The translations under genes were made by a program, and so were the position numbers. A model generated the notes under the pieces. The model was not told the origin of the DNA, searched no databases, and saw nothing but the letters and a program-made list of their open reading frames with translations. A DNA stretch of 64,000 nt from Anaerolineaceae bacterium (GTDB lineage: Bacteria > Chloroflexota > Anaerolineae > Aggregatilineales > Phototrophicaceae): positions 310,001-374,000 of the forward strand of contig PABP01000009.1 in assembly GCA_002699585.1 (NCBI GenBank), given 5' to 3'. The number at the start of each line of letters is the position of its first letter. Positions within the stretch are counted from its first letter, which is position 1. Below are positions 27,593 to 39,974 of this stretch, one piece after another.

Positions 27593-30010
27593 ATGAATCT
27601 TGTGGAATTGCCACTGATTAACTTATCTGACCCCAATACGCTGCCCTGGTTGATCCCGGCTGGGCCGCTGCTGGCGTTCTTCATCATCACTTTGTTGACG
27701 AACCGCGGTAAGTGGACCCCGGCGACGGACCATGCTTATGGTGGGCATCACCCGGATTACGAAGGCATGGACGTGCCTATCGTGACCGATTGGAGCCGCA
27801 TCATCAGCATTACGGTGGGCTTGAGCGGTGTGATTGCTGCGTTGCTCATCAGTCTGAACCTGGTGGGGCAGGCTTTGGCCATCGGCGCGGGTACATTTGG
27901 TACCGGCGATAACGTCTTTGCCAGCTCGATTGCCTGGATGGCGGCTGGTGACAGTCCCTTCCGTATTGGTGTCATGATTGACCCGCTGAACCTGGCCATG
28001 CTGGTCATGGTGCCGATTGCGGTGCTGTGTATCTTCATCTATAGCATCGGCTATATGGCGCACGATCCACGCCAATCGCGCTTCTTCGCGCTGATTAGCT
28101 TGTTCTCTGGCGCCATGCTAACGCTGGTGGTCGCGGATAACCTGCTGGTGCTCTTCGTCGGCTGGGAAGTCATGGGTTTGTGTTCGTACATGCTCATCGG
28201 CTTCTGGTTTGAAAAAGAGAGTGCCTACAAAGCCGCGATCAAAGCCTTTACCGTTACCCGTGTGGCCGATGTGATCATGCTGCTCGGTATCGCTTACCTT
28301 TATAGTGTCGCTGGCACACTGAACTTCCGTGATATTCTGTTTGATCCTCAAAAACTCGAAATGTTGGCTGGAACCCCGGCCATTATTTTTGGAAGTTGGG
28401 GATTCAGCGCTGCTGGTTTGATCGGCACGCTGCTGATCGTGGGTACGATTGGTAAATCGGCTCAGTTCCCGTTGCATGTCTGGCTGCCAGACGCAATGGA
28501 AGGCCCGACCCCGGTTAGCGCGATGATCCATGCGGCGGCAATGGTTAGTGCCGGTATCTACGCGATTATCCGCATGTATCCGCTGTTTGTGGGTTCCGGC
28601 GATGCTTTCGGCGCAGCCGACCCGCATCACGGCATCTTCACGCAGCCGCTGCTGTTGATGGCGATTGTCGGCAGCTTTACGGCGCTATTCTCGGCGACGA
28701 TGGCCGTTGCTCAGAATGACGTCAAAGCGGTGCTGGCTTACTCGACCATCTCCCAGCTTGGCTTCATGATGGCGGCCCTGGGTATTGGTGCCTATATCGC
28801 GGCTGCCTTCCACCTGATTACACACGCGTTCTTCAAAGCGTTGCTGTTTATGGCTTCTGGCTCAGTGATCCACGCGATGGAACACGGTGAGCATCACGTC
28901 CATGAACATCACGCGCATGGGCATGGCGATCATCACGATGAACATGATGAAGAAGCGTCCCACGATATGGCGGAAGAACATGGTGTTTCCGGTCATGCTG
29001 AACCACCCTTCGATCCGCAGGATATGCGCAACATGGGCGGTCTCTCCAAGAAGATTCCAGTTACCTTCTACGCCTTCATGGCAGGTGGCTTCTCGCTGGC
29101 CGGTTTCCCGCTGATCACAGCCGGTTTCTGGTCGAAGGATGAAATCCTGGCGGAAGCCTGGAAGGGCACAACCGAAGGCTTCGGTCCGCATGCCCTGGTG
29201 TTCTTCATGCTGGCGATTGCGGCCTTCCTGACAGCGTTCTATACCATGCGTCAGATTGGCCTGACCTTCTGGGGTAAGGCGCGCACGGAAGAAGCTGAAC
29301 ATGCTGGGCTGGGTGGCCCGCGCAACATCGTGTCGATCACGATGCAGCTACCACTGATTATCCTGGCATTCTTTGCCTTGTTCGCGGGCTTCGTCGGTGT
29401 GCCGACGGACTTCCCGCTCTTTGGTAGCATCTTCTCGCCGGATCACAACTTCTTCCATCATCTAGTGATTTACGCACTGCCGTATACGGACGTGTTCCAA
29501 GTAGAAGCGCCGCCCTTTAATCTGCTGCCCGTGCTGACATCGTTCGCCGTGGCGTTGGGTGGTATCTGGTTGGGTTGGCGCATGTACTGGCGCAAACCGC
29601 TGGCTGCTGGCGAAGAAGACCCCATGATTAACATCCTGGGACGCCCGGTCTACATGACCTTGCAGAATCGCTATTATATGGACCAGTTCTACGAGCTGAT
29701 CCTCGTTCGCCCCTCCAAATGGATCGCGCATCAAGTCAACGTGTTCCTCGATAAAGGCATTATCGATGGCTTCTTGCACTTCCTCGCGCGTGCTTTTACC
29801 TGGATTGGCGATTTGTTCAAAGTCTTAAATATGTGGCTGATCGACGGTGTCGGCGATGGGATACCGCGTGCAATTTACAACCTCGGTGGTTGGTTGCGCG
29901 GTTCTCAGACTGGGCGTGTCCAGCAGTACTTGCTGGCTGTACTCGTCATGGTTCTCGTCATCGGCCTGTTCTTCGCGCTGACCGCAGGCAGCGCGGTGGC
30001 CGTGCAGTAG
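27593..30010 (+). CDS. nuoL: NADH-quinone oxidoreductase subunit L, enlarged
   Basis: Antiporter-like proton-pumping subunit at the tip of the membrane arm. Motifs: LFVGWEVMGLCSYMLIGFW with the TM5 Glu, GTIGKSAQFPLHVWLPDAMEGPTPVSAMIHAA with the TM7 Lys, and HAFFKALLFMASG. At 805 residues it is much longer than the roughly 613 of E. coli NuoL. One extra block is a loop rich in His and acidic residues (about 429-475). The C-terminal lateral helix region (about 700-775) also looks long, with two similar segments, GIIDGFLHFLAR and WLIDGVGDGIPRAI, before the usual QTGRVQ. It is followed by two NuoM genes. Confidence 0.95.
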   Translation: MNLVELPLINLSDPNTLPWLIPAGPLLAFFIITLLTNRGKWTPATDHAYGGHHPDYEGMDVPIVTDWSRIISITVGLSGVIAALLISLNLVGQALAIGAGTFGTGDNVFASSIAWMAAGDSPFRIGVMIDPLNLAMLVMVPIAVLCIFIYSIGYMAHDPRQSRFFALISLFSGAMLTLVVADNLLVLFVGWEVMGLCSYMLIGFWFEKESAYKAAIKAFTVTRVADVIMLLGIAYLYSVAGTLNFRDILFDPQKLEMLAGTPAIIFGSWGFSAAGLIGTLLIVGTIGKSAQFPLHVWLPDAMEGPTPVSAMIHAAAMVSAGIYAIIRMYPLFVGSGDAFGAADPHHGIFTQPLLLMAIVGSFTALFSATMAVAQNDVKAVLAYSTISQLGFMMAALGIGAYIAAAFHLITHAFFKALLFMASGSVIHAMEHGEHHVHEHHAHGHGDHHDEHDEEASHDMAEEHGVSGHAEPPFDPQDMRNMGGLSKKIPVTFYAFMAGGFSLAGFPLITAGFWSKDEILAEAWKGTTEGFGPHALVFFMLAIAAFLTAFYTMRQIGLTFWGKARTEEAEHAGLGGPRNIVSITMQLPLIILAFFALFAGFVGVPTDFPLFGSIFSPDHNFFHHLVIYALPYTDVFQVEAPPFNLLPVLTSFAVALGGIWLGWRMYWRKPLAAGEEDPMINILGRPVYMTLQNRYYMDQFYELILVRPSKWIAHQVNVFLDKGIIDGFLHFLARAFTWIGDLFKVLNMWLIDGVGDGIPRAIYNLGGWLRGSQTGRVQQYLLAVLVMVLVIGLFFALTAGSAVAVQ

Positions 30011-30019
30011 GAGATAGGC

Positions 30020-31714
30020 ATGATCGATTTTAGTATCTTTGGCATCGACCCGCTGCAAGTCCTCATTTTGTTGCCCGCGGTGGGCACGGTGGTGGTCGCA
30101 GCGTTCTTCCGGCAGATATGGCTGGCGCGTATTGGCGCTCTGGCCTTCTCCCTGCTGACGCTGGCGCTGGCGGTCGTTGTCTTCTTTACCTACCAGAACA
30201 ATGCAGAGTCCGTCAATTATGGCTATCTCATGTTCAGTGAACCGCAACCCTGGTTCGAGGTGTTAGGGTCGCAGGCATCATTCGGCATTGATGGCATCAG
30301 TGCCGCCATGATCTTGCTGACGGGTATCCTGTCGCCCCTGTCGATTCTGGTCAGTTGGGAAGTCACAGATCGTGCGCCGATGCATCTGGCGCTGCTGCTG
30401 CTGTTTGAAGTCGGCAGTATGGGCGTCTTCGCCACGACAGACTTGATGGTTTTCTTCCTTTTCTATGAACTGAGTTTGGTCCCGATGTACTTCTTGATCA
30501 ACCAGTGGGGTAGCCCTGGTGGTCGCTTGTACGCTTCGACCAAGTTTATGATTTACTCCATCGGCGGTACGTTAGGTATGCTCCTGGCGACCCAGTTGAT
30601 TGGTTGGGCGTCGTCCTTGGCGACCCCGGACATGGCCGCTCAGGTTCAGGGTGTTCTGCCTGGTTTTGAAGCTGGCATGAATACCTACAACATGCAGGCG
30701 CTTTCGGTCTTGTGGCCGCAACTCAGTAACAGCGTCGGCCTTACCTTCCTGGGTACGTCGATTGAGACGGTCAAGGCCCTGGCCTTCCTCGGCTTCTTCG
30801 TCGCCTTCGCCATCAAAGTACCGATCTGGCCCTTCCATACATGGCTGCCGGATGCACATGGTGAAGCCCCAACAGCGGGTTCCATGCTGCTGGCTGGCGT
30901 CATGCTGAAGTTGGGCGCTTATGGGTTTATTCGCCTGGTTGTGCCGCTGTTCCCCGATGTGTGGATCAGCGAAGTCTTCCTGGGGATGAACTTTGCGACA
31001 ATGTTCGCCATCCTGTCGATGCTCGGCATTGTGTTGGGCGCACTGGCCGCTTTCGGTCAAAACGACATCAAGCGTCTGGTCGCTTACAGCTCGGTGAACC
31101 ATATGGGCTTTGTCGGCCTGGGCGTTGCTGTGATGGCACTGCTTTACGGCGAAGCATGGCAAGCTGCCCAGACGGGTGGCGGCGGTTTAACAGCCGATGC
31201 TTTGCAAACAGGTATCATCGCCACCAACGGCGCGGTCATGCAGATGTTCAATCATGGCCTCAGCGCAGCGGGTATGTTCTTGCTCGCAGGTGGTTTGTAT
31301 CATAAGACACACACGCGCGATATGACCCAGTACGGTGGTTTGTGGGTACGCGCCCCAATCTTCGGTGGCATCTTCATCTTTACCAGTATGGCTAGCCTCG
31401 GCTTGCCCGGTCTGAACGGCTTCATCGGCGAGTTCCTGGTGGTACGTGGCTCCTGGCCGATCTTTACAGCCATTACGGCGCTGTCGATGGTGGGTTTGCT
31501 CTTTACGGGTAGTTACATCCTCAAGGGCATCCGGGCGGTACTGCATGGGCCATTCAATCTGAAGTGGCGGGACACGCATCTGGAACTGCACTACAACGAG
31601 ATGTGGGCTATCGCCCCGCTGATGGTTTTGATGCTGGTTACTGGTATCCTGCCGAACTGGATTCTGCTGACGATAAACGGCAGTGTGACCGCGTTATTGA
31701 ACGGGATAGGGTAA
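30020..31714 (+). CDS. nuoM: NADH-quinone oxidoreductase subunit M, copy 1
   Basis: A 564-residue antiporter-like subunit. It keeps the pump residues: the TM5 Glu in FFLFYELSLVPMYFLI, the TM7 Lys266 in FAIKVPIWPFHTWLPDAH, and the TM8 Lys in AGVMLKLGAYGF. GLPGLNGFIGEFL near the C-terminus is typical of NuoM. GGAGATAGG precedes the ATG. A second NuoM follows after 4 bp, so this organism should build a complex I with four antiporter-like subunits (L, M, M, N). Confidence 0.95.
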   Translation: MIDFSIFGIDPLQVLILLPAVGTVVVAAFFRQIWLARIGALAFSLLTLALAVVVFFTYQNNAESVNYGYLMFSEPQPWFEVLGSQASFGIDGISAAMILLTGILSPLSILVSWEVTDRAPMHLALLLLFEVGSMGVFATTDLMVFFLFYELSLVPMYFLINQWGSPGGRLYASTKFMIYSIGGTLGMLLATQLIGWASSLATPDMAAQVQGVLPGFEAGMNTYNMQALSVLWPQLSNSVGLTFLGTSIETVKALAFLGFFVAFAIKVPIWPFHTWLPDAHGEAPTAGSMLLAGVMLKLGAYGFIRLVVPLFPDVWISEVFLGMNFATMFAILSMLGIVLGALAAFGQNDIKRLVAYSSVNHMGFVGLGVAVMALLYGEAWQAAQTGGGGLTADALQTGIIATNGAVMQMFNHGLSAAGMFLLAGGLYHKTHTRDMTQYGGLWVRAPIFGGIFIFTSMASLGLPGLNGFIGEFLVVRGSWPIFTAITALSMVGLLFTGSYILKGIRAVLHGPFNLKWRDTHLELHYNEMWAIAPLMVLMLVTGILPNWILLTINGSVTALLNGIG

Positions 31715-31718
31715 ACGC

Positions 31719-33440
31719 ATGGAATTTGGTTTTGACGTCTTAACGCTCATCATCGCCATACCGACGATTGCTGGCGTTATCCTGCTGTTCATGCCTCCGG
31801 CAAATCGTGACATCATCCGTGGTGTGGCGATTACGGCTGCGGTAGCGACACTTGGCCTCTCGCTGGTGGTTTTCCTCAGCTATAACGGCCTCGTCGCGGA
31901 CGGCTCGGTCTTGAGCGGCCAACCTGCTTTCGATCAAAGTATCGGAACCAGTACGGCTACCCAGGCTTTTAGTGAGGCGATGGTCTTTGAAGCCCGCTAT
32001 ACCTGGGTCGAACAGTTGGGCATTGCATGGCATGTGGGTGTTGATGGCCTTAACGCCCCGATGGTCTTGCTAACGGGTATGGTCGCCGTCGCCGGTGTCT
32101 TGATTTCCTGGAATATTCAGGATCGTTTGCGCGAGTTCTACGCTTTCTTCATGCTGCTAGTCGCAGGTGTGTTGGGCGTTTTCGTCGCGGTCGATCTGTT
32201 TATGTTGTTCTTCTTCTACGAATTAGCGATCTTCCCCATGTACTTGTTGATTGCAGGCTGGGGTTGGGTCCGATTACGCGAATACGCCAGCATGAAGCTA
32301 ACGCTCTACATTCTGGTGGGTTCGGTGGTGGCCCTGGTTGGTGCGATTGCCATGTACTTCTTCGCTGGTAATTTCTTCAGCGGGGAGCAGGGCAGCGCGA
32401 TACTGCAAGCGGCCATCGACAGCGGCCTGTTGCCACAGGGCAGCACCGCTTATAGCTTCAATATGGTTCAGTTGACGCTGGCTGCGGAAAACGGCCTGTT
32501 CAACATTGGCGGTTACCTGGGTGTGGACGTCCTGACGTTCGGTACGTTCTGGTTCCCATTCATCTTCATTGGCTTTGCGACACTGGCTGGTGTCTTCCCG
32601 TTCCACAACTGGTCGCCGGATGGCCACGTCGCAGCACCAACGGCTGTGTCGATGATCCATGCGGGCGTGCTGATGAAGCTCGGCGCTTACGCCGCGCTGC
32701 GCGTTGGTGTCCAACTGATGCCAGAAGCGGCGCACGTTCACTTACCCTGGATCGTCTTCCTGACGCTCATCAACGTGGTATACGGTGCGTTTATCGCCTT
32801 CCGCCAACGCGACTTCAAATACGTTATCGGTTTCTCCTCGGTCAGCCATATGGGCTTGGTCAGTATGGGTTGGGCCACGATGAACCTGACGGGTATGACA
32901 GGCGCTGGCTTGCAGATGTTCAGCCACGGCGCGATGACAGCCCTTTTCTTCGGTTGTGTTGGCATGGTCTATGACCGCGCTCATACGCGCGACATCCCCA
33001 GCCTGGGTGGTTTCATCAAGCAAATGCCCTGGGTGGGTGTGGCCTTTATCGTCGGTGGTCTGACGAGTATGGGTATGCCCGGTTTCAGCGGATTTGTCGC
33101 TGAGTTCCCGATCTTCCAGGGCATGTGGGAAGCATCGCAAAATGTATCGCTGCATATCGGCGATTTCACACTATCGAATTACTATGGTCCAATCGTGATA
33201 CTGGCGGCGCTCGGTATCGTCATTACAGCGGCCTATGTGCTGCGGGTGACGGGGCAGGTCTTCTTTGGCGAGTTTGACGCCAAGAAGTACCCTGAAGTCG
33301 GGGACATCGCCATTACGGATCGTATTATCTTGCTTTTGCTGGGTGTGCCATTACTGATCCTGGGTCTGTATCCACAGATTATGGCACCCATGATCACTGA
33401 AGGCCTCAAGCCGATTGTCATGCTGCTAGGGGGTATGTAA
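31719..33440 (+). CDS. NADH-quinone oxidoreductase subunit M, copy 2 (TM7 Lys replaced)
   Basis: A 573-residue NuoM homologue. FFFYELAIFPMYLLIAGWGWVRLREYASMKL, FPFHNWSPDGHVAAPTAVSMIHAGVLMKLGAYAALR and MPGFSGFVAEFPIFQG identify the family. The TM5 Glu and TM8 Lys are kept. Aligning FATLAGVFPFH with the FAIKVPIWPFH of copy 1 places Leu289 where copy 1 has the conserved TM7 lysine. The protein is thus either a modified pump or a spacer-like subunit. It is not a recent duplicate, since the two copies are well diverged. It starts 4 bp after copy 1 and ends 3 bp before nuoN. Confidence 0.93.
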   Translation: MEFGFDVLTLIIAIPTIAGVILLFMPPANRDIIRGVAITAAVATLGLSLVVFLSYNGLVADGSVLSGQPAFDQSIGTSTATQAFSEAMVFEARYTWVEQLGIAWHVGVDGLNAPMVLLTGMVAVAGVLISWNIQDRLREFYAFFMLLVAGVLGVFVAVDLFMLFFFYELAIFPMYLLIAGWGWVRLREYASMKLTLYILVGSVVALVGAIAMYFFAGNFFSGEQGSAILQAAIDSGLLPQGSTAYSFNMVQLTLAAENGLFNIGGYLGVDVLTFGTFWFPFIFIGFATLAGVFPFHNWSPDGHVAAPTAVSMIHAGVLMKLGAYAALRVGVQLMPEAAHVHLPWIVFLTLINVVYGAFIAFRQRDFKYVIGFSSVSHMGLVSMGWATMNLTGMTGAGLQMFSHGAMTALFFGCVGMVYDRAHTRDIPSLGGFIKQMPWVGVAFIVGGLTSMGMPGFSGFVAEFPIFQGMWEASQNVSLHIGDFTLSNYYGPIVILAALGIVITAAYVLRVTGQVFFGEFDAKKYPEVGDIAITDRIILLLLGVPLLILGLYPQIMAPMITEGLKPIVMLLGGM

Positions 33441-35142: not shown

Positions 35143-35466
35143 ATGAGACGCCCAAAACAGACGTCCGGCATCTCTAGCCTTGCTATCATAGTAATCAGTG
35201 CTTTAACAGGCTTCATTGCACTTGCCATCGCATTTTCTGCACTGTCGTTGGGCTTATGGATTGATGGCTTGGTCGGTCAACGAGGGCCTGCTACCGTCTG
35301 TCTGGTAGTGGCTAGTGTGCCGCTTAGCCTTTTTATCATGATCCGATTGGCGTTGTTCCTCATCAAACGGTTTAGTCACAAACCGCGAGGATCAACGTAC
35401 GCGGTTGATGACACCATTGAGGATGAGGTTCCCTTTACGGGTCCGCTAGAACATAAGGAGGAATAG
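35143..35466 (+). CDS. AtpZ/AtpI-like F0 assembly protein
   Basis: A 107-residue protein with two membrane helices (about residues 14-37 and 47-72) and the GLWIDGLVGQRGPATVC turn typical of the AtpZ/AtpI family, whose members sit at the head of ATP synthase operons and help c-ring assembly or Mg2+ entry. The C-terminal tail is acidic and soluble. It lies 51 bp upstream of atpB, which supports the call. Confidence 0.7.
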   Translation: MRRPKQTSGISSLAIIVISALTGFIALAIAFSALSLGLWIDGLVGQRGPATVCLVVASVPLSLFIMIRLALFLIKRFSHKPRGSTYAVDDTIEDEVPFTGPLEHKEE

Positions 35467-35517: not shown

Positions 35518-37122
35518 ATGAGTACGAACCAACGTGGTTGCTTGTACCTCGTGGGTCTGGTGATCTTCGCTTTCTTCGGGTGCTTCTTGTTCCCCTTTAT
35601 CGTACTCCCGGCCTGGGGCACAGCGGTTACGCTGCCTGTGATTACCGTTCCGGCTGAGTACTACATCGAAGGTTGGGCCGGTTTCCTGTCGCCAATCCAG
35701 GCGATTTTCCCGGATTTCCAACTGGTGAATACGCTCGGTGGCGCGCTGTTGGCTAACATCATCGTGCTGTTGATCGCGTTCTTCGCTTGGCGTGCATCAA
35801 AGGGCTGGACAAAAGAAGTGCCGGGTCGTTTCCAGGGTTTTGTCGAACTCATCGGCGAAATCTGGTGGAACCTGACCAAAGAACAGGCTGGTACCAAGCC
35901 TAAAGTGAAGTACATCTTGTTCCCTTATGTAGCAAGCATTTTCTTGTTCTTGTTCGCCGGTAACCTGGGTAAACTGCTCCCTGGTGTGGAAACGGTTGGT
36001 GTGCTGCACTGTGCGGCCTACGAACCTGTGGCCCTTAACGGCTTCCCAGTTTCAGAATTGGGGTCGATCACGGGGCAACCGTACTTCGTGCTGCGTAATG
36101 ACGCCGCACTGAATACGGGCCAGGCTGGTACCGACGAAAGCTATCATCGTTGCGAAGCGATGATGGGCATCGACGCTTACGAAAGCTATCTGCCCACACA
36201 GCTTGATCCGTTCCGCGATCAGGAAGTCACTTATGTTGTGGAAGAAGGCGACACGCTGGAAAGCATCGCCGAGCACTACAACACTGACGTCTTGCCGGAA
36301 CTGCAAGCCGAAGCCGTGGAAGATGGCAGCGAATACGTCGAAGTTGAATATGAAGGCTACGCACCGGTTATCATCAGTGCGGAAAGCATCATCGAAGCCA
36401 ATACAGGTGACGATGGCAGCGTTAACATCGTTGCACTGGCCGAAGATGATCATTCGGCTGCGGCTGACGATCATGGTGAAGAAGCGGCTGCTGACGGCGA
36501 AACTGCCGAAGGTGAAGCTGCGGCTGATGATCATGCTGAAGAACCCGTCGTTGAAGAAACCGCTGCTATCACAGCCACAACAGAACTGGAACCGGGTCAG
36601 ACCCTCATCGTGCGCGAGCAACTGCTCGGTGCGGAGGCCACGACCTTCCAGAACCAGTTGTTCACCGTTGCACCTTTCGTTCGTGGTGTTTCCACGGACC
36701 TGAGCTTCACCGTCGGTCTGGCGTTGTTGGCCTTTGTCGCCATCCAGGCATTCGGTGTCAGCGAATTGGGCATCAACTACTTCCAGAAATTCATCAACGT
36801 GCATGCCCTGGGTAACATTGCCAAGCGCCCGCTCGGTGCGATTGACTTTGTGGTTGGCCTGTTCGAGATCATCTCGGAATTCGGTAAGATCATCAGTCTG
36901 TCATTCCGTTTATTTGGTGCTTTGTTCGCAGGTTCGGTACTCTTTGTCGTGATCATGTTCCTGGTCGGTACCACCGTCCCGGTCATCATCCTGGCACTGG
37001 AATTGATCGTGGGTCTGGCGCAAGCAGGTGTGTTTGCCATCCTGACGATGCTGTTCTGTGCCCAGGCGATGGTTGCACATGTCCATGATGATGAAGACCA
37101 CGACCACGCAGAGGCCCACTAA
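35518..37122 (+). CDS. atpB: ATP synthase F0 subunit a with a large LysM-like insertion
   Basis: Stator channel subunit of the ATP synthase. Standard elements are FPYVASIFLFLFAGNLGKLLPG (about residues 134-156), then VSTDLSFTVGLALLAF (about 391-406), the essential Arg464 in ISLSFRLFGALFAG and LELIVGLAQAGVFAILTMLF. At 534 residues the protein is about twice the usual length. The extra part (about 158-385) lies between TM2 and TM3, a loop expected on the outer face. It holds two Cys (VLHC..., YHRC...), a LysM-like YVVEEGDTLESIAEHYNTD (239-257), SIIEANTG (290-297) and LEPGQTLIV (357-365), separated by acidic, Ala-rich stretches. A His-rich tail ends the protein. GGAGGAAG precedes the ATG. Confidence 0.92.
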   Translation: MSTNQRGCLYLVGLVIFAFFGCFLFPFIVLPAWGTAVTLPVITVPAEYYIEGWAGFLSPIQAIFPDFQLVNTLGGALLANIIVLLIAFFAWRASKGWTKEVPGRFQGFVELIGEIWWNLTKEQAGTKPKVKYILFPYVASIFLFLFAGNLGKLLPGVETVGVLHCAAYEPVALNGFPVSELGSITGQPYFVLRNDAALNTGQAGTDESYHRCEAMMGIDAYESYLPTQLDPFRDQEVTYVVEEGDTLESIAEHYNTDVLPELQAEAVEDGSEYVEVEYEGYAPVIISAESIIEANTGDDGSVNIVALAEDDHSAAADDHGEEAAADGETAEGEAAADDHAEEPVVEETAAITATTELEPGQTLIVREQLLGAEATTFQNQLFTVAPFVRGVSTDLSFTVGLALLAFVAIQAFGVSELGINYFQKFINVHALGNIAKRPLGAIDFVVGLFEIISEFGKIISLSFRLFGALFAGSVLFVVIMFLVGTTVPVIILALELIVGLAQAGVFAILTMLFCAQAMVAHVHDDEDHDHAEAH

Positions 37123-37212: not shown

Positions 37213-37479
<267 letters not shown>

Positions 37480-37502: not shown

Positions 37503-38330
37503 ATGATGAAACAAACCCTAAAACGGCTTTTACCAGTCTCGGTCATGTTGGCCACTGCGCTGGCTATGTCCCCGCTTGCTGCCCTGGCACAAGAGGAACA
37601 TGCGGCAGAAGCAGCAGCAGAAAGCCCACTGACCCCGCTTGGTATCAACGCCGGTCTGTTGTTCACACATACGTTTAACTTCATCCTGATCGCCGTCATT
37701 CTTTCGGTCGTTATGTGGCGACCGATGGTCAACTTCCTGGATGCCCGCAGTGCGCGCATTCAGAAGGGCCTGGAAGACGCCGCCGCTGCCGCCCGTGCGC
37801 GCCAGAATGCCGAAGCAGAAGCTGAGAAAATTCTCGCTGCTGCCCGTGCAGAAGCCGCCAAGGTGCTGGAAGAGGCTCGTGGTCGTGGTGATGAAGTTGC
37901 CGCTAGCATTCAGACTGCTGCCAGTGAAGAAGCTGAACAGATCAAGACAACTGCTCGTGACGAAGCCGTCGCCGCTCGCAATGCCGAGTTGGCTGGCCTG
38001 CGCGACCAGGTGCTCAATATCTCCAGCGCGATGGCTGGCCGCATCCTGGGCGAGCAAATCGACGCCAGCAAGCAGCAAGCCCTGGTGAGCGATTTCTTCA
38101 GCAACTTGCCAGCAGATGCCAAGAGCCTGTCTGGTTCAGTAGAAGTCGTGAGCGCCATGCCGCTTAGCGAAGCTGAGCAGAAGCGCGTCAGCAGCGAAGT
38201 CGGTGCTGATGACATCACCTTCACGGTAGACCCGGCCATCCTCGGTGGTCTGATCGTCCGTGCACCGGGCCGCGTCATCGACGGTAGCGTCCGTAGCAAC
38301 CTGACGTCCCTGTCTGGCCGCCTGAACTAG
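37503..38330 (+). CDS. atpF: ATP synthase subunit b fused to the delta C-terminal domain
   Basis: Peripheral-stalk protein of 275 residues. Residues 1-29 look like a signal peptide (basic start, hydrophobic core, ALAQ end), followed by an acidic linker, one membrane helix (about 54-72, FTHTFNFILIAVILSVV), the MWRPMVNFLDARSARI start of the b stalk, and a long Ala/Glu coiled coil (about 85-195). The last 64 residues (VEVVSAMPLSEAEQKRV... DPAILGGLIVRAPGRVIDGSVRSNL) match the C-terminal domain of subunit delta/OSCP. No atpH, atpA, atpG, atpD or atpC follows. A terminator closes the operon here. Confidence 0.9.
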   Translation: MMKQTLKRLLPVSVMLATALAMSPLAALAQEEHAAEAAAESPLTPLGINAGLLFTHTFNFILIAVILSVVMWRPMVNFLDARSARIQKGLEDAAAAARARQNAEAEAEKILAAARAEAAKVLEEARGRGDEVAASIQTAASEEAEQIKTTARDEAVAARNAELAGLRDQVLNISSAMAGRILGEQIDASKQQALVSDFFSNLPADAKSLSGSVEVVSAMPLSEAEQKRVSSEVGADDITFTVDPAILGGLIVRAPGRVIDGSVRSNLTSLSGRLN

Positions 38331-38381: not shown

Positions 38382-38438
38382 AGTTTCCAACCTGTTTGCT
38401 AAACTATGCTCCATCGTTTGCCGATCCAACGAGGCCTT

Positions 38439-39974
38439 ATGACCGTTACGCTGCAACAGCTTATTGCTACCTTACCATCGACTGCCAGTCCCATGATTTC
38501 TGGTGATGGGGACGTGGTGATCGCTGCCCCCGTAGTCGAGGATAATCGTCTGGTGCAGCCTGGTGGTGTTTTTGTCGCGCGCCACGGCTTGAGCGTTGAT
38601 GGCCATGACTACATCGCGGATGCCATCGAGCGTGGGGCGGCAGCTATTGTGGGCGAGCGCGACATCAGCGACGTGTCGGTTCCTTATGTGCGCGTGGCCG
38701 ATGCCCAGTCCGCGACCGGCTATCTGGCGGCAGCCTATCACGATTTTCCATCGCGCAAGCTGATCGTCATTGGCATCACTGGCACCGATGGCAAGACGTC
38801 TACTAGTCATATTCTGCATAAAATCCTGACGGAAGCGACGGGCGGTAAGGCTGGCTTTATCAGCACGATTGCCGCTGATTTCGGCAGTCGTAGCGAAGAA
38901 ACCGGTCTGCATGTCACGACACCGGGCGCGCCGCAGGTCCAGGCGTATCTGGCGCAGATGTCCAATGCGGGTCTGACACACGTCGTATTGGAAATGACCA
39001 GTCACGGGCTGGCGCAGGGGCGGCTTAACGGTACGGACATCGACGTGGCTGTGATGACCAACGTCACCCATGAGCACCTCGATTTTCATGGTTCCTGGGA
39101 AAATTACCGCGCGGCCAAAGGGCGGCTGTTTGCCATGCTGGGTCAGAGTGTACGCAAGGGCGATCAGCCCAAGGTGGCTGTCATCAACCGCGATGATCCT
39201 TCTTTTGACTATTTCGCAGCTTTTGAAACAGATCGTGTCGTTAGCTATGGCATCGAGCAGGCTGCTGATGTCCGGGCAATGCACATCGCCCACAGCCCCA
39301 GTGGCACATCTTTTGAGGTTGGGAGCCAGCAGGTCGATATGCAGCTCGTCGGGCGCTTTAACGTGTATAACGCTCTGGCTGGGCTGGCCGCAGCTCGCGC
39401 GTTGGGCATCCCTCAGGATGTGGCTGCGCGGGGCTTGGCCCAGGTACAGACGATTCCAGGGCGGATGGAGCGTATCGACGAAGGGCAGGATTTCCTGGCG
39501 CTGGTCGATTTTGCCCATACGCCCAACGCCCTGCGTCGTGCCCTGGAAGCGGGTCGCGAGATGGTCAGCGAGGGTGGTCGTTTGATCGCGGTCTTTGGTA
39601 GTGCAGGCCTGCGCGATGTGGAAAAACGCCGCATGATGGCTGAGGTCAGCGCGCAGCAGGCTGATTTCACGGTACTGACCGCCGAAGATCCGCGCACGGA
39701 ATCACTGGACGACATCCTGCACATGATGGCCGATGGCTGCATCTCTCAGGGCGGCGTTGAGGGCGAGACGTTTATCCGCGTGCCGGATCGCGGACAGGCG
39801 CTTTATGAGGCCTGCCGGATGGCAAAGCCGGGCGATGTGGTCATGGCCTGTGGCAAGGGCCACGAACAGAGCATGTGCTTTGGCACAGTCGAGCATCCCT
39901 GGGACGACCGTGACGCGCTGCGGGCGGCCCTGCGCGGAACGCCCCTCAAGACCTTACCCACAGCGACAGCCTGA
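38439..39974 (+). CDS. murE: MurE-type UDP-MurNAc-tripeptide synthetase
   Basis: Adds the third stem-peptide residue to UDP-MurNAc-L-Ala-D-Glu. The 511-residue protein has the N-terminal Mur domain (DNRLVQPGGVFVARHG), the P-loop GITGTDGKTSTSH, VTTPGAPQVQ, EMTSHGLAQGRL, NVTHEHLDFHG and the C-terminal CGKGHEQ. The substrate loop reads EDPRTE (residues 416-421) where meso-DAP enzymes usually have DNPR; the Arg is kept. DAP is not assured: L-Orn or L-Lys is possible, and L-Orn is known from Chloroflexus wall (established knowledge). ATG 38439 has GAGG upstream; a farther ATG at 38406 lacks it. Confidence 0.9.
   Translation: MTVTLQQLIATLPSTASPMISGDGDVVIAAPVVEDNRLVQPGGVFVARHGLSVDGHDYIADAIERGAAAIVGERDISDVSVPYVRVADAQSATGYLAAAYHDFPSRKLIVIGITGTDGKTSTSHILHKILTEATGGKAGFISTIAADFGSRSEETGLHVTTPGAPQVQAYLAQMSNAGLTHVVLEMTSHGLAQGRLNGTDIDVAVMTNVTHEHLDFHGSWENYRAAKGRLFAMLGQSVRKGDQPKVAVINRDDPSFDYFAAFETDRVVSYGIEQAADVRAMHIAHSPSGTSFEVGSQQVDMQLVGRFNVYNALAGLAAARALGIPQDVAARGLAQVQTIPGRMERIDEGQDFLALVDFAHTPNALRRALEAGREMVSEGGRLIAVFGSAGLRDVEKRRMMAEVSAQQADFTVLTAEDPRTESLDDILHMMADGCISQGGVEGETFIRVPDRGQALYEACRMAKPGDVVMACGKGHEQSMCFGTVEHPWDDRDALRAALRGTPLKTLPTATA

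Follow-up and report, generated by a model that had tools for sequence, protein, structure and literature searches.

The stretch of DNA analysed here (the window, 64,000 nucleotides of contig PABP01000009.1 from an Anaerolineaceae bacterium) carries, in this order, nuoL, two nuoM-like genes, a nuoN-like gene, a small membrane ORF, atpB, atpE, atpF and a MurE-like Mur ligase gene. The atpB gene (35518-37122, plus strand, as are all of its parts, the small ORF, the other atp genes and the Mur ligase gene) encodes subunit a of an F-type ATP synthase (PF00119, 4.3e-27), whose outer loop appears to bear a LysM domain, a fold known above all for holding glycan chains of the cell wall. An earlier note on this DNA had described a subunit a of 534 residues at this place, with an unbroken frame, and both the coordinates and the length are correct. 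Upstream of it lies the small ORF (35143-35466), which encodes two membrane helices and is AtpZ/AtpI-like by appearance only, as it has no Pfam match. Downstream, atpE (37246-37479; PF00137, 6.8e-17) codes for the c-ring subunit, and atpF (37503-38330; PF00430, 1.6e-21; PF00213, 1.1e-11) for a b subunit fused to the C-terminal part of delta (OSCP). The b part of this product has a signal-like N-terminus and the delta part corresponds to positions 103-170 only of the 172 in the OSCP profile; neither the F0 nor the F1 gene group showed a separate delta gene. The Mur ligase gene (38406-39974; PF08245, PF02875, PF01225) comes directly after atpF, and the same gene order is found in the related genome G112. 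The F1 genes for alpha, gamma, beta and epsilon are on the same contig, about 500 kb from the F0 genes. The gamma subunit (L099:7115-8440; G000:C23, approximately 843.1-844.4 kb) has 441 residues and a C-terminal extension with a helix-hairpin-helix-like stretch, for which HHH_5 (25.4 bits, cut-off 27) and DUF4332 (22.6 bits, cut-off 23.2) both score just below threshold. The C-terminus of gamma normally lies inside F1, which makes the location of an extended one odd. Among the nuo genes, the NuoL-like protein (27593-30010) has a long His/Asp/Glu-rich stretch (GEHHVHEHHAHGHGDHHDEHDEE...), which is present in G112 too, and the C-tail of subunit a is likewise rich in His and Asp. The tandem pair of NuoM-like antiporter-type genes (30020-33440; 564 and 573 residues) also occurs in G112.

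The Pfam scan of the atpB protein gave an ATP-synt_A match of 95.8 bits (cut-off 33.9) in two stretches. Arg464, the essential channel arginine (36907-36909), stands in the motif SLSFRLFG that starts at residue 460 and is invariant in the alignment with relatives, so that the channel is intact at this position, as the earlier note had it; we take this residue to be the equivalent of E. coli aArg210. Residue 468 (36919-36921), which follows FRLFG at the position of E. coli aAsn214, is Ala in all six LysM-type proteins described below, and Ala or Val is found there also in families f7 and f8, both of which lack LysM. Family searches, on which all genome-wide statements made here rest, found no second a-subunit in the source genome (G000), and the LysM-bearing one must therefore serve. 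The hydrophobic segments of the protein lie at about 5-46, 66-96, 128-157, 390-420 and 457-523. Lys and Arg residues are present in the loops at 94-128 and 412-438, while the loop between TM2 and TM3 (about 154-390) has 51 Asp/Glu and 6 His against 5 Lys/Arg. This distribution suggests that the two Lys/Arg-bearing loops are inside and the TM2-TM3 loop outside, which was also the placement first proposed for it. Such a placement is consistent with the five-helix topology of E. coli subunit a, and it agrees with the pair of cysteines found in the loop of most relatives.

The outer (P-side) loop, whose extent was set by alignment with relatives, covers residues 155-390 (35980-36687; about 235 residues). 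The earlier note had regarded all of the extra length as a LysM-like insert with two cysteines. A LysM part is indeed recognizable, at residues 236-368 approximately, where it is interrupted by two spacers. The membrane-proximal segment (residues 155-228; 35980-36201) is older and is common to most of the order, so that much of the extra length, although real, belongs to an order-wide loop unrelated to LysM. Both cysteines, Cys165 (36010-36012) and Cys212 (36151-36153), are present as described and fall within this older segment, not in the LysM part. The latter consists of three pieces: residues 239-257 (36232-36288; YVVEEGDTLESIAEHYNTD), corresponding to beta1 and alpha1; residues 284-297 (36367-36408; VIISAESIIEANTG; ends approximate), corresponding to alpha2 and containing an invariant Asn; and the region around TATTELEPGQTLIVRE (residues 353-368, 36574-36621; ends approximate), corresponding to beta2 and containing an invariant L..GQ...R. 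An acidic spacer with Ala and His (residues 298-352; 36409-36573) separates alpha2 from beta2. It is short in G026 and G112 and has gaps even when the source genome is compared with its sister genome (G001). The segment TDVLPELQAEA, directly after alpha1, was considered as alpha2 and rejected for the later SIIEAN, which fits better, its Asn being invariant and the structure model placing alpha2 there.

The Pfam LysM profile (PF01476, cut-off 20.9 bits) matched the full protein with 25.2 bits and the loop scanned alone with 30.3 bits. The match to the full protein, at residues 239-258, involves profile positions 1-20 only, about half of the profile. Two of the five relatives with the same loop type score above the cut-off, two below it (17.0 and 19.3 bits) and one has no match. 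The motifs GDTL, the alpha2 Asn and the GQ before beta2 are nevertheless all present and in order, spread across about 130 residues where 43-50 are usual, and an alignment of five loops from five species shows GDTL, the Asn and L..GQ...R to be invariant and the spacers variable. A block test was devised for this analysis, with position matrices from 29 LysM domains of the source genome and 2000 shuffles. In the six LysM-type loops, which had been pre-selected by eye and profile, block 1 gave p<=0.001 throughout (0.0005 in the source protein), and blocks 2 and 3, taken in order and at the homologous place, gave p values of 0.0005-0.0045 in five and 0.06 in the sixth (0.001 in the source protein). 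None of the non-LysM loops tested was significant both for block 1 and for blocks 2 and 3. The motif positions first proposed (239-255, 290-295 and 357-365) are correct, and better than chance when compared with shuffled sequences. Profile comparisons agree: hhalign assigned piece 1 to LysM with a probability of 95%, and when a four-loop profile was run against a PDB set the matches were LysM proteins, the best being 4uz2 (1.9e-7).

The AlphaFold2 model of the whole protein (nine sequences) was poor, with a mean pLDDT of 46 and a pTM of 0.27, and confidence was good in few places, the LysM pieces being among them; the loop was therefore modelled alone. The model of residues 229-374 joins the three pieces into the strand-helix-helix-strand (beta-alpha-alpha-beta) arrangement that the earlier note had named as support for its reading. 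The pieces have pLDDT values of about 80-91 (86-91 for piece 1), with a helix at 288-294 and a strand at 362-366, and the acidic spacer is mostly below 50. Superposition with VIA-align gave the best Z (5.1) for 4uz2, with 48 residues at 1.9 Å; a Z of 5 is generally low, but the LysM domain has only 47 residues. On 4uz3_C, 47 of 47 residues superpose at 1.6 Å, and on single LysM domains in general 47-49 residues do so across all three pieces, at 1.6-2.1 Å, LysM accounting for most rows of the superposition list. Foldseek with the loop model returned no match at E <0.001, its top rows being LysM all the same. Taken together with the sequence evidence, the model indicates that the loop very probably carries a LysM-type fold on the outer face.

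The same loop type is found in six genomes of one Anaerolineae family (G000, G001, G014, G031, G026 and G112), including a same-genus genome that is a single 5.6-Mb contig, in which the gene is 84% identical. The insert sought in relatives is therefore there, and the unbroken frame was rightly read as no artefact. Beyond these six, the LysM-type loop did not turn up in the order (154 genomes), in 396 genomes of the class or in 400 of the phylum, two overlapping samples that were searched by loop profile; this profile contains the shared Cys segment, so that a LysM in a quite different loop would be missed, and it also matches G013, which lacks the LysM pieces. Of the relatives, 37 have a completeness of 90% or more and low contamination, and every one of these has a match to the protein. 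The a-subunit frames of the order are nearly all 364-594 residues long, the few exceptions being fragments and short copies that differ in kind, while in the phylum sample outside the order they have 236-395 residues and a continuous family match with no large break. The long outer loop is thus a trait of the order. Where both of its ends are recognizable it has 98-287 residues and always two cysteines; genus g17 and its allies have a different loop, in which the first cysteine is absent. The distal parts of these long loops (e.g. L016, L017, L020, L052) are coiled-coil-like or acidic/His-rich, with no convincing family match, and among 39 loops scanned with Pfam none had another known wall-binding domain, the matches being scattered and weak. 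The short a-subunits (222-321 residues; G094:C480, G050:C471, G056:C112, G045:C21, G152:C237, G005:C232) have far higher PF00119 scores and are a second copy in most such genomes, possibly belonging to a separate ATPase of another type. An Anaerolineae-type long-loop a-subunit also occurs on a contig labelled Bacteroidetes (L045), which groups inside Anaerolineae on the core tree and is most likely misbinned.

In a tree of the membrane core, from which the loop was left out, the six LysM-type proteins form one clade (100/98), and the LysM state requires one change, which was never equalled in 500 shuffles. The simplest history is a single gain of LysM within an already long loop, later than the loop with the Cys segment. 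However, genus g6 contains G026 with LysM and G006 without it, and in genus g17 only G112 has it, which indicates that loss, transfer or misbinning also occurred; the contamination of G112 is 6%. Between G000 and G001, pN/pS is 0.07 and 0.13 for the membrane core, 0.11 for the Cys segment, 0.33 for the LysM blocks and 0.33, with indels, for the acidic spacer, all rough figures because synonymous sites are near saturation. Identity between two species of one genus is 66% for the LysM pieces, compared with 95% and 89% for the membrane core. The LysM part is retained and is under loose purifying selection.

In the complex of a LysM domain with chitohexaose, the ligand occupies a groove between the S1-H1 and H2-S2 loops, with main-chain contacts from Gly24, Leu27, Tyr28, Phe50 and Leu52 and side-chain contacts that include Val21, Tyr28, Arg32, Phe50 and Gln53 (PMC4356369). 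The equivalents of Gly24, Thr26 and Leu27 are preserved in the loop as Gly244, Thr246 and Leu247. The position of Tyr28 is occupied by Glu248 (Glu in G001 as well, Ala in the other four) and that of Arg32 by Glu252 (Glu or Ala in the others); 15 of the 28 LysM domains counted elsewhere in the source genome have Tyr or Phe at the Tyr28 place. The H2-S2 loop, which forms the second rim of the groove, has about 10 residues in canonical domains; in the six members its place is taken by about 20 to 70 residues, about 60 or more in four of them and about 20 in two. The LysM pieces have a pI of 4.05-4.5, the median for the other LysM domains of the genome being 4.86. A single LysM is usually a weak binder, and with Glu or Ala in place of the contact side chains and the second rim replaced, glycan binding by this part of the loop is possible, but would probably be weak. 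As for the ligand, the source genome has nine matches to peptidoglycan transpeptidases (PF00905, two of them in one frame) and about 40 LysM matches. No Omp85 match was found in it, while the outer-membrane controls of the same search gave matches; the organism thus makes peptidoglycan and probably lacks an outer membrane of the Gram-negative type. The link from beta2 (366) to TM3 (about 391) has 25 residues, at most about 8 nm when stretched, which suggests a domain close to the membrane that would meet nascent or inner strands and not the distant wall.

The membrane core, the channel Arg464, the operon with c and b and the presence of a sole copy, as far as found, are those of any F-type subunit a (PF00119, AtpB), from which this one differs by its TM2-TM3 loop with a predicted LysM fold. 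Compared with LysM domains (PF01476) such as those of the Thermus P60 endopeptidase (4uz2/4uz3), it shares the conserved motifs and the predicted fold, but is stretched by its two spacers, has Glu or Ala at two contact positions, and sits within a motor subunit that is itself an integral membrane protein, not within a wall enzyme. The protein is a familiar one; what is new is its domain architecture, with a LysM-derived ectodomain built into the F0 stator. A search of the open-access literature returned no paper describing a LysM in subunit a, and those that pair the two terms appear to mention both in passing, which is weak evidence of novelty; a search for the ATP synthase periplasmic loop together with peptidoglycan gave nothing relevant.

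We propose that the three distant pieces fold together beside the membrane-proximal Cys segment, that the resulting ectodomain faces the cell wall and may bind the glycan of peptidoglycan, probably on nascent or membrane-near strands, and that the F0 stator would thereby be tethered or positioned by the wall, as MotB anchors the flagellar stator. Taken as one statement, from the ectodomain to the tether, this is put forward tentatively, its chances being close to even but short of it. The MotB anchor is the nearest functional parallel, a wall-binding ectodomain on an ion-driven stator with a job like the one proposed here. The domain of MotB/PomB is however OmpA-like, C-terminal and unrelated in sequence to the LysM loop, and no OmpA family is among the Pfam matches of the atpB protein, so that the likeness is a functional analogy only. 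Moreover, in ATP synthase, as opposed to the MotB/PomB stator, torque is balanced inside the complex and anchoring is unnecessary for its work. Within the same phylum, Litorilinea aerophila has a PilO-LysM fusion for which a role in holding the archaellum motor to peptidoglycan has been suggested but not demonstrated (PMC13319060). It likewise joins LysM to a component of a membrane machine as a proposed anchor for a rotary motor, but in another protein, of the archaellum/type IV pilus alignment complex (PMC13319060). Neither MotB nor PilO-LysM is homologous as a machine.

The main competitor of the tether is a LysM-derived domain that no longer binds glycan and acts as a structural or protein-protein module (as a cap next to the c-ring, as a contact in dimers or supercomplexes, or as a handle for assembly), the wall being uninvolved. 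The loss of the stacking and Arg contacts, the acidic surface, the replaced groove rim and the relaxed conservation relative to the membrane core would all suit such a module, as would the invariant non-LysM motif LLG.ATT..NQ right after beta2, which suggests an interface with the rest of subunit a, and the coiled-coil-like or acidic sequence, with no known binding domain, that relatives hold in the same loop. The Gly, Thr and Leu of GDTL, which provide main-chain glycan contacts, are on the other hand invariant, and a published quadruple mutant of the contact residues Tyr28, Arg32, Phe50 and Gln53 still bound glycan (PMC4356369). We regard this reading as a serious possibility, though somewhat less likely than not. 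It is unlikely that the main role of the loop is to buffer or collect protons, by means of its acidic and His residues, where the outer half-channel opens, with the LysM remnant a mere spacer: its excess of acidic residues and His, and the recurrence of such stretches in relatives that lack LysM, are in line with this function, but conservation is lowest in the acidic spacer, which differs in length between sister species and is short in two members, while the LysM pieces are kept.

That the likeness to LysM arose by chance or convergence in a low-complexity loop is very improbable. The Pfam profile scores in its first half only, and Foldseek alone falls short of E <0.001, as would be the case for a spurious resemblance, but the ordered-block test, the occurrence in six genomes that group in a single clade and a structure model in which the three pieces come together already disfavour it. 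An assembly or binning artefact might be suspected since most of the genomes are draft or metagenome-assembled, and G112 in particular may be a chimeric bin, its a-subunit differing in kind from that of its assigned genus. The same frame and loop nevertheless recur across six genomes, of which one is a single contig, and the order nuoL-M-M-N-atpB-E-F-murE is conserved in G112; this explanation, whose probability is close to nil, is refuted for practical purposes. Tethering to peptidoglycan is the leading reading that emerges, with glycan binding as its weak step.

Few components of bioenergetics are as conserved as subunit a. If it does contain a fold that binds wall sugars, energy conversion and the cell wall would be connected, and one could test directly whether ATP synthases, like flagellar stators, can be fixed in position. 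The picture of a rotary ATP synthase in which a LysM within subunit a ties the F0 stator to peptidoglycan, or lets peptidoglycan set its place, is tentative, and we would put it somewhat below an even chance. Even without glycan binding, the protein indicates that large folded domains can be accommodated in the outer TM2-TM3 loop of subunit a. The whole Anaerolineae order has elaborated this loop, which to our knowledge is covered by no solved structure.
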